Source: Deltaproteobacteria bacterium
GTDB taxonomy: Bacteria; Desulfobacterota; Desulfomonilia; UBA1062
DNA length: 63,565 nt
Direction: 5' to 3'
Assembly (NCBI GenBank): GCA_018434685.1
Contig: JAHDOV010000030.1
Coordinates: 1-63,565, forward strand
Position 1 is the first letter of the stretch. Each line of letters begins with the position of its first letter. The notes beneath the pieces are model-generated. The model was not told the DNA's origin. It worked only from the letters and a program-made list of their open reading frames with translations, and ran no database searches. The position numbers were made by a program, and so were the translations under genes. This document shows, piece by piece, positions 40,617 to 63,565 of this stretch.

Positions 40617-40748
40617 TGACACTGTAGGAGCGGCTTCAGCCGCGACCGGGCAGGGTCGTGGTTTGGGAGGAGATTTAGGTCGCCGCTGAACCGGCTCCTA
40701 CAGCGTGGTGTGGCTGGTAACACTGTAGGAGCGGCTTCAGCCGCGACC
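40576..40748. repeat. REP array, two paired units
   Basis: Units of the form GTCGCCGCTGAACCGGCTCC-TACAG, a short linker, then CTGTAGGAGCGGCTTCAGCC-GCGACC. There are two such pairs (40576-40647, 40679-40748) separated by a linker TTTGGGAGGAGAT that recurs in other arrays. They lie immediately left of a short RAYT gene. Confidence 0.9.
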
Positions 40749-40808
40749 ACGGCACGGGATGATTAGTAACTCACTGATATTTCGTTAAATTGTTGTAAGG
40801 GGGAGGCC

Positions 40809-41285
40809 ATGAACAACGATTATCGAGATGAGAGATCTGGCCAGTATGCGCTCCGCAAAGGCCGCTGGTCTGAAGCAGGCAGGTATTATGTCGTAACCTC
40901 GGTGACGCACCGGTGAACCCCGTTGTTTGAAAATTTCGATATAGCCCGGCTCGTGGTACATGAAATGAAACGCCTGCATGATGATGGTGAGGTGTCATCC
41001 CTGGCCTGGGTCTTGATGCCCGACCATCTCCATTGGCTGATAAGTCTGTCTGAAGAGTTCGATCTGCCTCAGGTCATGATGCGTGTAAAAGGCCGATCCG
41101 CCCACCAGATAAACACCTTTCGTAAAAAGAAAGGTAAAATCTGGCAGAAGGCCTTCTATGATCGAGCACTGAGGAGGCAAGACGATGTGCGCCACATAGC
41201 AAGATACATCGTTGCCAATCCACTGCGAGCAGGTTTGGTTGAGGATATTGGAGAATATCCATTATGGGATGCGATCTGGCTGTGA
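40809..41285 (+). pseudogene. RAYT transposase (Y1 HUH) interrupted by an in-frame TGA
   Basis: A frame from ATG 40809 (MNNDYRDERSGQ) reads RAYT-like protein throughout, but has TGA at 40914-40916 (THR-stop-TPLFENF). After it comes the HUH motif MPDHLHWLI, the Tyr in KAFYDRALRR, and IARYIVANPLRAGLVEDIG. Downstream frame integrity supports a recent inactivation or readthrough. REP units lie on both sides (40576-40748, 41301-41340), the classic arrangement for RAYT genes. A CGA-to-TGA change would explain the stop. Confidence 0.8.
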
Positions 41286-41300
41286 AGCATGATCGTAGTC

Positions 41301-41340
41301 AGGGAGGAGATTTGGGTCGCCGGTGAACCGGCTCCTACAG
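41301..41340. repeat. REP half unit, right flank of RAYT
   Basis: GGGAGGAGATTTGG linker followed by GTCGCCGGTGAACCGGCTCC-TACAG. Confidence 0.8.
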
Positions 41341-41358
41341 GAGTAGAGCATAAGCGAA

Positions 41359-41381
41359 GCACGATAATGCTTCCCGCCAAC
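41359..41381. repeat. 23-bp direct repeat, copy 1
   Basis: Identical to 41614-41636. The two copies bracket about 232 bases holding a hairpin repeat and a dispersed repeat. A related REP-like hairpin (GGCAGGC ... GCCTGCC) begins just after copy 1. Confidence 0.6.
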
Positions 41382-41416
41382 GGCAGGCAGCTCGCTCCGC
41401 TCACAGCCTGCCCTAC

Positions 41417-41560
41417 AATCGTGAGATCAAGAGACCGTTTCTAACGGAGAACCTGTTATTTGTCGTCGTCTCCCGACAAATAACAAGATCTTTTCTCTGC
41501 GGCCTTGGCGCCTCCGCGGTGAATATTCTTCTTTTGTGTCTTTCACTTCTGCCTGGGGTC
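41417..41560 (-). repeat. Dispersed repeat with 12-bp hairpin, copy A (inverted)
   Basis: Shares a core hairpin at 41454-41485 (TGTTATTTGTCG / CGACAAATAACA, 8-base loop) and a flanking TTTTCTCTGCGGCC tract with copies B and C near 63 kb, in the opposite orientation. Confidence 0.75.
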
Positions 41561-41613
41561 ATGTTCCCCAAGTCCTGCCCTACCTGACTTCCCGAACCCA
41601 CCTGCTTGTAGAG

Positions 41614-41636
41614 GCACGATAATGCTTCCCGCCAAC
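41614..41636. repeat. 23-bp direct repeat, copy 2
   Basis: Second copy of the repeat at 41359-41381; it runs directly into a REP unit at 41636. Confidence 0.6.
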
Positions 41637-41816
41637 TGTAGGAGCGGCTTCATGCGCGACCGGAGCAGGGCCGTTGTTTGGGAGGATATGGTCGCCGCTG
41701 AACCGGCTCCTACAGCGTGGTGTAGCTGATAACACTGTAGGAGCGGCTTCAGCCGCGACCACTGCAAGGCCGTCTTCAGGAGGAGCGCGGGTCGTCGTTG
41801 AAGCGGCTTCTGGAGG
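41636..41816. repeat. REP array, with degenerate right end
   Basis: Units CTGTAGGAGCGGCTTCATGC, linker TTTGGGAGGATATG, GTCGCCGCTGAACCGGCTCC, and a second half to 41760. A decayed unit continues to about 41816. Confidence 0.85.
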
Positions 41817-57824: not shown

Positions 57825-59501
57825 CGGGCTGTTGCTCGAATAGCTGTTTGAGGAATCTTTATTCTGTGAACGGATTAAGCCAACATTTCTGAATAACTGA
57901 CATCAACACATCTCCCAGGTAACTTACAATTGCGCAAGAAAGATGAAATACGGCAACAAAGAGAGTTTATTCTACCTGCTGAAGCCTTTATTGGCCTTCG
58001 ATTAGGCTTAGCATCATTATTTCTCAAAGGTTTTTGCTTAATAAGAATGGAGATATTCTGAATGGCAGCAATGAGGAAGTCCTGGATCTCCATGCGCCAC
58101 AACCTGCGCCATCGTGCACGTTTATATCCATATCGGGTAGACCATGCAAAGGATCTCTCGGAGAGATCCTGCCGTTTTCTTATATCTCGTTTGGCCTTAA
58201 GTGTAGATGCTTCCATACGCAGGTAATCCAGTTCGTCCTGCCGGGGATGTCGCTTTAAGGATCTGCCATCCTTTGCACGAGTACATGCATCTCTCAACGG
58301 ACACTGTGCACAGACACCTTTATCAGCCCTATACTCATAATGATTCCTTTCCTTGTGATAATGGTGTTTCCTCAATTTGTGCCCGGCAGGGCAGGTATAC
58401 GTATCTGAGGCAGGATCATATCGAAAAGCTTCTTTCGGGAAAATGCCTTCACGTCGGCCCGATCCTTTCTGTGTTTTCTCAAGCGAAGCCATATGCCCCT
58501 TTATCTTGCGGTCATGACAGTATAGATAATTCTCGGTAGTTCCATACTTGCTGTCTCCAACTGCAACAACGATATCCGTCTTAACAATATCCTCATGTTC
58601 CTCAACCATCTCAGAGAACATCTTCCCATCGTCCACAGATCCGGGGGTAATCTTTGTGGCGGTAATAATCTCGCTTTTCTGGTCTACACAGCGGTGGGTC
58701 TTGTACCTCAGTTTGGGTTTGCCACTCGAATATCTACTTACAGAGGCATCAGGATCAGTCGTAGAGATATACCGGCTATTTACTGGCGTTTTTTTTACGT
58801 CTGCATCTTCCAAGGACTCTTCAAGTCTGAGATAACTCTTGTTGAGATACTTCTTCAGGCTATGCCTGTTTACAACCGAATTATTGGATGCATCTGCATC
58901 GATGAGACTCGCATCGATAAAAAGCTTGCTCCCCTCTACCAAACCGGCCTCAATACACTGCAAAACAATACGTTCAAAAAACGTTCTGAATGTATCAACT
59001 CCCCACCGAGCCCTGGCCTTGCTCAACACACTATGATTGGGAATCTCATCATCCAGACCGTATCCAAGAAACCACAGCCAGTCCAAACGCTCCGGAATCG
59101 TTTCCACCAGTTCCCTCTCAGATCTGACATCGTAGTAAAACAGCAGAAACATCATCTTCAGGATCACAGGAGGAGGAACCGATACATTCCCATTGTTGCC
59201 GTAGCTATCCTTGACCTCATCATAGAGAAAATCAAAGTTGATGAACTTGACAACCTTTCGAAGCGGGTGATCTTTCCTAACACGATCACTCAGGTTTACA
59301 TGATAACTGAATATCATCTCCTGGGGGGATTCCTGACGACCCATCATAGGCAATATCCTCAGTGTTTTTATACCTTACAATGACATATATCACTTATAAT
59401 TACAATGTATTAAATGCTTTTATTACAAGAAGATACCAGATAATCTAAGGATCAATCCTCAAGCAATTGCTATGCCCTACAGTTGTTTGGGCAACAGCCC
59501 G
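57825..59501 (-). mobile_element. Complete IS1182-type insertion sequence
   Basis: 1677 bases with 11-bp terminal inverted repeats: CGGGCTGTTGC (57825-57835) and GCAACAGCCCG (59491-59501). TTTA occurs on both sides (57821-57824, 59502-59505), a probable 4-bp target duplication. One full transposase gene is inside, so the element may be active and recently arrived. Confidence 0.88.
57875..59347 (-). CDS. IS1182-family transposase
   Basis: About 490 residues. An N-terminal DUF772-type region (VSVPPPVILKMMFLLFYY, ERLDWLWFLGYGL) precedes the DDE core (LFIDASLIDADAS, VVAVGDSKYGT) and the cysteine cluster PAGHKLRKH ... CAQCPLRDAC. A C-terminal arginine-rich segment (RYGYKRARWRRLWR) follows. It is intact. 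ATG 59347 or 59344 is the likely start. Confidence 0.9.
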   Translation of the reverse strand: MMGRQESPQEMIFSYHVNLSDRVRKDHPLRKVVKFINFDFLYDEVKDSYGNNGNVSVPPPVILKMMFLLFYYDVRSERELVETIPERLDWLWFLGYGLDDEIPNHSVLSKARARWGVDTFRTFFERIVLQCIEAGLVEGSKLFIDASLIDADASNNSVVNRHSLKKYLNKSYLRLEESLEDADVKKTPVNSRYISTTDPDASVSRYSSGKPKLRYKTHRCVDQKSEIITATKITPGSVDDGKMFSEMVEEHEDIVKTDIVVAVGDSKYGTTENYLYCHDRKIKGHMASLEKTQKGSGRREGIFPKEAFRYDPASDTYTCPAGHKLRKHHYHKERNHYEYRADKGVCAQCPLRDACTRAKDGRSLKRHPRQDELDYLRMEASTLKAKRDIRKRQDLSERSFAWSTRYGYKRARWRRLWRMEIQDFLIAAIQNISILIKQKPLRNNDAKPNRRPIKASAGRINSLCCRISSFLRNCKLPGRCVDVSYSEMLA

Positions 59502-59590: not shown

Positions 59591-59725
59591 CTGTTCCCCA
59601 CGGGTGTGGGGATGAACCGCCAAATCTCCAACCAGGGGGTTGGAGAAATAAGCTGTTCCCCATGGGTGTGGGGATGAACAATTTGAAATAGCTGTCGCAC
59701 CCCATAAGGGGACGTGGATTGAAAC
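59591..59725 (+). CRISPR. CRISPR remnant: two type I-E-like repeats and one type I-C-like repeat
   Basis: Repeat 59591-59619 (GTTCCCCACGGGTGTGGGG core, ending ATGAACCG) and 59653-59681 (with one change in the stem and altered last bases) are 29-base type I-E-like repeats, 33 bases apart. At 59694-59725 a 32-base sequence ending GACGTGGATTGAAAC looks like a type I-C repeat, adjacent with a 12-base gap. No cas gene is in the window. The lone spacer is a 9-bp hairpin, so acquisition is doubtful. Confidence 0.65.
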
Positions 59726-62968: not shown

Positions 62969-63075
62969 AGCCGCGACCGGGTTGTGGCATGTTTCCGGCG
63001 GTTGTGTCGCCGCTGAACCGGCTCCTACAGCGTGGTGCACCTAATAACAGTGTAGGAGCGGCTTCAGCCGCGACT
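62969..63075. repeat. REP array
   Basis: A half unit from 62969, then GTCGCCGCTGAACCGGCTCC at 63006, loop, and the second half to 63075. Confidence 0.85.
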
Positions 63076-63409: not shown

Positions 63410-63431
63410 GTCGCCGCTGAAGCGGCTCCTA
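63410..63431. repeat. REP half unit cut by the intron
   Basis: GTCGCCGCTGAAGCGGCTCC then TA, after which the GTGCGCC sequence begins. The other half of the REP is missing here. Confidence 0.8.
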
Positions 63432-63565
63432 GTGCGCCTGGAAGCAGGCGAGGTCAGTCGAGTGAGAGTCTCGATCCAGGGGATGTCCGACCCTGGCAGC
63501 CGAAGGTAACTGCGTCGCTGTGAAGCGGGGTGGGGAGCAACCGGAGGCGGAGAAGCAGTCCGCAG
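63432..63565 (+). mobile_element. 5' end of a group II intron, cut by window edge
   Basis: Begins GTGCGCC, the usual start of bacterial group II introns. It continues with a CCTG-GAAG-CAGG hairpin, then TCGAGTGAGAGTCTCGA (63459-63475), and GAAGGTAACTGC, all consistent with domain I. The rest, with the reverse transcriptase gene, would lie to the right. It starts exactly at the base after the REP stem. Confidence 0.7.

Follow-up and report, generated by a model that had tools for sequence, protein, structure and literature searches.

The closest described systems are group II introns that read DNA hairpins and mobile elements found at REP palindromes. Class C introns are established to insert after terminators and at attC sites (PMC4424553), and insertion right after terminators is reported for class C, g6, U1, and U2 introns (PMC8919778). 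In the cryo-EM structure of the group IIC intron of Eubacterium rectale, EBS1 corresponds to A184-G187 and EBS3 to A231, and protein and RNA together hold the DNA stem-loop (PMC10190682). The lineage described below resembles this intron in its hairpin DNA target, its short EBS1-IBS1 and EBS3-IBS3 pairings, and its endonuclease-less protein, with EBS1 at about nt 176 compared with near nt 184 in E. rectale. It differs in an EBS1-IBS1 pairing of 5 bp, which is free in sequence and frequently reaches into the base of the stem, in the lack of a T-tract, and in the repeated palindromes that make up many of its targets. The group IIC-attC introns of integrons also target a nonterminator palindrome, but theirs is attC, an integron recombination site, whereas the present lineage is found at REP-type palindromes (PMC4424553).

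Elements associated with REPs provide the other term of comparison. A table in PMC1525189 lists two of the nine copies of a group II intron of Pseudomonas putida KT2440 as associated with REPs. The likeness to the present lineage is one of position: a minority of the P. putida copies is concerned and no mechanism accompanies the table, whereas here palindromes occur at nearly all sites and are accompanied by a pairing rule. The insertion sequences ISPpu9, ISPpu10, and ISPa11 also target REPs as multicopy landing sites but are DNA transposons, not retroelements (PMC1525189). Within the accessible parts of the literature on REP targeting, this table was the one place where we found a group II intron next to REPs, and no lineage with systematic REP targeting or EBS1 tuning came to light. 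Here, we analyze a window of 63,565 nt whose end, compared with related introns, makes it very probable that a mobile group II intron, either IIC in type or from a close sister lineage, uses a host REP palindrome as its retrotransposition target.

Results

The window is the whole of contig C26 (positions 1 to 63565) in a genome of 4.29 Mb assembled in 58 contigs. Near its right end, a REP palindrome on the plus strand (GCCGCTGAAGCGGCTCCTA, 63413 to 63431) forms the 5' exon, with a GCCGC-TGAA-GCGGC stem-loop followed by TCCTA. Without any gap, and 5 nt past the stem, a group II intron begins, of which the window holds 134 nt (63432 to 63565, plus strand), starting with GTGCGCC and containing the start of domain I. 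The original prediction of a REP running directly into GTGCGCC and domain I-like hairpins is borne out: the junction falls at 63431/63432, and in an alignment of 19 sequences RNAalifold predicted 33 pairs in the 134 nt, of which 15 show compensatory changes. The first letters, GTGCG, agree with the GUGYG 5' end of group II introns. No Rfam family matched the window at gathering scores, as expected with domain V past the contig break. The abrupt stop of the intron at the window end is itself a contig break. Contig C33 ends with an identical stretch (134/134), and a copy near the end of contig C7 matches that of C33 at 133/134 positions and extends 19 nt further; every 5' copy of the intron in the genome stops at a contig end or 19 nt before it. 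All three 5' ends start exactly after a REP ending in GCTCCTA, and the three junctions differ in sequence farther upstream.

The other half of the element was found in the same genome. Group II intron 3' ends stand at the start of contigs C29 and C54, and both carry the domain V that was expected beyond the junction (RF00029, 51.6 bits for a gathering score of 40). Their domain VI helix folds with a bulged A located 8 nt from the 3' end, and the intron ends with CCTACCCCTAT. Both 3' ends are followed by CAG, and an inverted partner REP, degenerate in one of the two cases, lies 24-25 nt beyond. The window holds, 0.4 kb upstream of the intron, an unoccupied inverted REP pair resembling a REPIN (63009 to 63071, no strand assigned). 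It reads CTCCTA/CAGCGTGGTGCACCTAATAACAGTGTAGGAG, the slash marking the insertion point, and is a paralogous empty site for the 3' half on C29 (CAGCGTGGTGCACCTGATAACAGTGTAGGAG). After the intron, C29 continues with CAGCGTGGTGCACCTGATAACAGTGTAGGAGCGGC, and the unoccupied form in the window is CTCCTA/CAGCGTGGTGCACCTAATAACAGTGTAGGAGCGGC. The C29 flank and its matching empty site place the intron within an inverted REP pair, with CTCCTA before it and CAG after it, and with no visible duplication or loss of the target. Neither a reverse transcriptase (PF00078) nor RF02001 (group-II-D1D4-3) had a match in this genome. The middle of the intron is presumably missing because, being repeated, it was lost in the assembly of short reads.

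The palindrome at the junction is part of an abundant family. The pattern GCNGCTNAANCNGCTCCTAC has 78 exact matches in the genome, compared with 1 for the reversed control pattern. Allowing up to one mismatch, the window contains 19 matches, where 100 shuffles led to expect 0.00; the 19th is the copy split by the intron (63413 to 63432). On the other strand the REP starts with GTAGGAGCGGC, which places GTAG at its foot, as in the GTAG superfamily of REPs (PMC3733652), to which we assign this many-copy palindrome. The REPs of the window often form inverted pairs with starts 43-44 nt apart, and in the genome their stems are of the GCCGC/GCGGC and GCGGC/GCCGC kinds. REPs are mobile sequences spread by RAYT transposases. 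The genome has eight matches to Y1 transposases, and a RAYT-like locus in the window (40624 to 41756, no strand assigned) consists of a cluster of six REPs around a Y1 transposase remnant (40923 to 41285, PF01797, 120 aa, 41.9 bits), an association of REPs with a RAYT (Y1) transposase that is not in itself proof of mobilization. A second Y1 match lies at the contig start (14 to 253).

DNA matches to the intron start occur in 23 of the 395 genomes of the phylum, including the present one; this search scored at most two candidates per genome, and copy numbers drawn from it are lower bounds. Among the 24 genomes examined in the family or order, the other 23 of the family had no true intron match. 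A 24-nt match in one genome (G022) was taken as chance, as it lies in a coding-like stretch with no palindrome at its start. The exact REP-intron junction was found in none of the viral contigs, and the phage records searched gave no match to the intron. Plasmid records did match its 3' part. One related intron (L023) lies on the Paraburkholderia plasmid pBN3, right after the hairpin ACCGC-GTCA-GCGGT and near genes for site-specific recombinases.

A scan of contigs with four aligned proteins recovered 113 relatives; 80 of these loci were retained, in hosts from Thermodesulfobacteriota, Planctomycetota, Acidobacteriota, Pseudomonadota, Cloacimonadota, and other phyla. Complete introns with this anatomy are found inside contigs of relatives. 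Full-length copies mostly measure 1.84-2.06 kb, have CCTACCCCTAT or a close variant at their end, and code for a reverse transcriptase of ~450 aa (six relatives have ORFs of 445-463 aa). Four shorter copies, 645-766 nt long (L071, L072, L073, and L066), lack the reverse transcriptase ORF, share the same ends, and adjoin palindromes; they are probably mobilized in trans. In the one relative scanned with Pfam, the nearest, the protein has RVT_1 and GIIM domains and no endonuclease match. Its best PDB matches are the proteins of the E. rectale IIC intron (206 bits) and GsI-IIC (202 bits), followed by LtrA (155 bits) and 6me0 (154 bits), a comparison among solved structures by which the protein may belong to class C proper or to a neighboring class of intron-encoded proteins. 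We take 6me0 to be T.el4h, a group IIB protein, and likewise assume the IIC or IIB labels of these chains. The intron-encoded protein expected beyond the junction was thus found in relatives, with IIC introns as its closest solved structures, and has no match in the genome's own assembly.

We then asked what precedes the related introns. A profile of the intron start gave 91 matches, from which 74 nonredundant sites were counted after leaving out 17 (eight matches not beginning at the intron start, four flanks shorter than 40 nt, one with N, and four duplicate loci). These sites are not independent, as 11 come from a single Singulisphaera genome. Stems were defined as perfect Watson-Crick helices with a loop of 3-12 nt, ending at most 8 nt upstream of the intron. 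A stem of at least 6 bp was found at 56 of the 74 sites, compared with 4.3% of 14,359 control positions taken from these flanks, and one of at least 5 bp at 70 sites, compared with 11.6% of these control positions. Only two sites, L139 and L128, have no perfect stem of at least 4 bp, and L128 has an imperfect one. The stem mostly ends 2-5 nt before the intron and the loops mostly have 3-4 nt. Insertion next to a DNA stem-loop is a hallmark of group IIC (class C) introns, and other copies do lie next to palindromes, in this genome and in relatives, as the original prediction anticipated. The T-tract of a terminator was not seen: none of the 74 sites has TTTT in the last 15 nt upstream.

The tails that link hairpin and intron are of several kinds. 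CTA closes the tail at 21 of the 74 sites. The 3' end was mapped for 14 of them, and in each case the next base is C, so that CTAC, complementary to GTAG, is restored. Nine sites are of the CGTC kind (GTCAnnCC, stem, then TCC or ATC), eight have tails ending in GGAATGA or a variant, 11 belong to the Singulisphaera palindrome, and 25 are of other kinds. The 11 introns of Singulisphaera sp. GP187 (L104-L106, L108, L111, L113-L117, and L145) are of one kind and all lie in one palindrome, whose core has 74 copies in that genome. Three pairs of introns are (nearly) identical and yet follow hairpins that differ in sequence and are similar in shape: L056/L057 in G181 (288/288 nt), L072/L073 in G398 (748/750 nt), and L054/L055 in G168 (133/133 nt). 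The occurrence of the same introns behind different hairpins of like shape suggests that the stem is read by its shape and the tail by its sequence, in line with the group IIC structure. These sequences indicate that the hairpin is the target of the intron, not its cargo.

We counted the palindromes in a few hosts. The CGTC pattern has 152 matches in G143, 142 in G069, 19 in G239, 7 in G168, 6 in G079, 2 in G000 (the present genome), 1 in G181, and 0 in G398, with 0 for the control. The pattern GGGCG...CGCCCCTAC has 666 matches in a Desulfacinum genome, 563 in G181, 62 in an acidobacterium, 53 in G398, 11 in G143, and 0 in G000 (controls 5, 5, 0, 0, 1, and 1, respectively), numbers that exceed those of REPs since perfect palindromes match both strands. 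In several hosts, the palindrome next to the intron is, by sequence and copy number, an abundant REP of the GTAG or CGTC kind.

How do the introns recognize such different tails? The first 480 nt of 51 introns were aligned, and the 5-mer at every column was compared with the 5' exon of the same intron and with those of the others. The 51 introns are those of the 74 with at least 420 nt and no N; 10 of the 11 Singulisphaera copies were left out. A single place stood out, at intron nt ~176 (about 176-180), which pairs with positions -1 to -5 and which we identify as EBS1. Own EBS1-IBS1 combinations match at 4.51 of 5 positions on average, and mismatched partners at 2.29 (z 14.7, n=51). Positions -1 to -4 are each paired in at least 92% of the introns, position -5 in 80%, and position -6 in 41%, and the T:A, G:C, A:T, and C:G combinations all occur. 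Fewer than four of the five positions are paired in 5 of the 51 introns (L068, L076, L077, L079, and L118). An earlier candidate for EBS1, in GCAGGAG at nt ~131, was dropped when the covariation scan placed EBS1 at nt ~176.

The pairing is maintained among close relatives with different targets. For example, L053, L085, L086, and L087 encode proteins 90-93% identical to that of L053, and have tails AATCC, AATGA, GGTCC, and GGTGA with EBS1 sequences GGATT, TCATT, GGACT, and TCATT, respectively (including G-U pairs). On the protein tree, from which L075 was excluded since its ORF is another gene and not the intron protein, EBS1 changes together with position -1 in 7/7 independent well-supported pairs (p 0.016); the other four positions never change the wrong way and are too few alone. 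On a first protein tree that still included L075, the tail changed state 17 times, compared with 19.8 in shuffles, which points to lability of the target tail rather than to clustering.

The first base of the 3' exon also covaries with the intron. The column of nt 268 of L053 is Watson-Crick paired to +1 in 39 of the 42 introns with a mapped 3' end among the 51 (30 G:C, 8 U:A, and 1 A:U), and we assign it to EBS3. EBS2 gave no comparable signal at offsets 0-19 (largest z 4.4, versus 14.7 for EBS1). In the relatives, the combination of a hairpin, EBS1, and EBS3 without EBS2 is that of group IIC recognition. In the window, homology with these relatives identifies TCCTA at positions -5 to -1 (63427 to 63431, plus strand) as IBS1, with the intron's own EBS1 past the contig break. 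The copy in the window probably obeys the same rule, carried over from relatives of at most 81% DNA identity, and its EBS1 is predicted to read TAGGA, beyond the 152 nt available.

Discussion

These observations point to a REP-targeting lineage that works in the manner of group IIC introns and whose EBS1 suits the tail of the host palindrome. The initial suggestion of a class C-like insertion past a stem-loop, with the REP as target, gains support from the hairpins, from EBS1 and EBS3 without EBS2, and from the IIC-like, endonuclease-less protein of the relatives. A possible mechanism can be drawn from the insertion point, the hairpin, the covariation of EBS1-IBS1 and EBS3-IBS3, the absence of EBS2, domains V and VI, and the reverse transcriptase of the relatives. 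The excised lariat, together with an endonuclease-less reverse transcriptase, would dock on single-stranded DNA in which a REP is extruded as a hairpin. The last 5 nt before the insertion point, in many cases with the hairpin foot among them, would pair with EBS1 (about nt 176-180), and the first base of the 3' exon with EBS3. The intron would then reverse-splice between the exons (here CTCCTA/C) and be copied into DNA, probably with priming by the replication fork. In this scheme, the activity of the intron, the extrusion of the hairpin, and the priming by the fork are inferred.

An ordinary class C intron that inserts after intrinsic terminators, and at REPs only for their resemblance to terminators, would follow the same logic of a hairpin and a short IBS1, and class C, g6, U1, and U2 introns have been reported right after terminators (PMC8919778). 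We nevertheless judge this reading improbable: no T-tract precedes any of the 74 introns, the IBS1 sequences (CTA, TCC, TGA, and others) are not T-rich and covary with EBS1, and several of the palindromes are REP families with tens to hundreds of matches. That the hairpin belongs to the intron element and travels with it, and hence is no target, would account for its presence at nearly all sites, but is very improbable given the identical introns behind hairpins of different sequence (L056/L057, L072/L073, and L054/L055) and the many REP copies that are unoccupied.

The order of events could also be reversed, with RAYT transposases placing REPs beside old introns. REPs are mobile and the genome has its eight Y1 matches, but a REP abutting the intron at one fixed phase, an EBS1 in relatives that fits the tail of the REP, and introns with one half of an inverted REP pair on either side make this scenario just as hard to sustain. 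Still less credible is an assembly chimera at the REP-intron junction. All copies in this genome do lie at contig ends, but the three 5' junctions are consistent despite their different flanks, as are the two 3' junctions, and the relatives have full-length introns of the same anatomy inside contigs.

The preferred reading, a group IIC-like intron that targets host REPs, has implications for both partners. Besides terminators and attC sites, group II introns that read hairpins would have REP palindromes as a systematic target, with a recognition rule obtained directly from covariation. A broader idea, which we hold to be evenly poised, is that this retroelement lineage is, across phyla, a dedicated passenger of REP/REPIN palindromes. 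REPs spread by RAYTs would offer abundant and harmless landing pads; retuning the five letters of EBS1, with the hairpin read by shape, would allow switches of host palindrome (GTAG, CGTC, or other) without change of the protein. One family of mobile DNA (REP/RAYT) would then provide the habitat for another. With its naturally varied 5-nt EBS1 and a hairpin read by shape, the lineage also makes the IIC target rule directly testable, and could be of use for retargeting such introns.

Other features of the window

The window carries further elements. Two 27-nt repeats (CTGTTCCCCAyGGGTGTGGGGATGAAC) at 59591 to 59679, spaced by 62 nt, look like the remnant of a CRISPR array and are presumably of the I-E repeat kind. 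A DDE transposase of 492 aa (PF13751, PF05598) is encoded on the minus strand at 57875 to 59353. Between 54726 and 57786, a Response_reg_2 protein is followed by ORFs resembling, by eye, an HNH nuclease and a Vsr-type endonuclease, possibly a DNA-modification or defense neighborhood.
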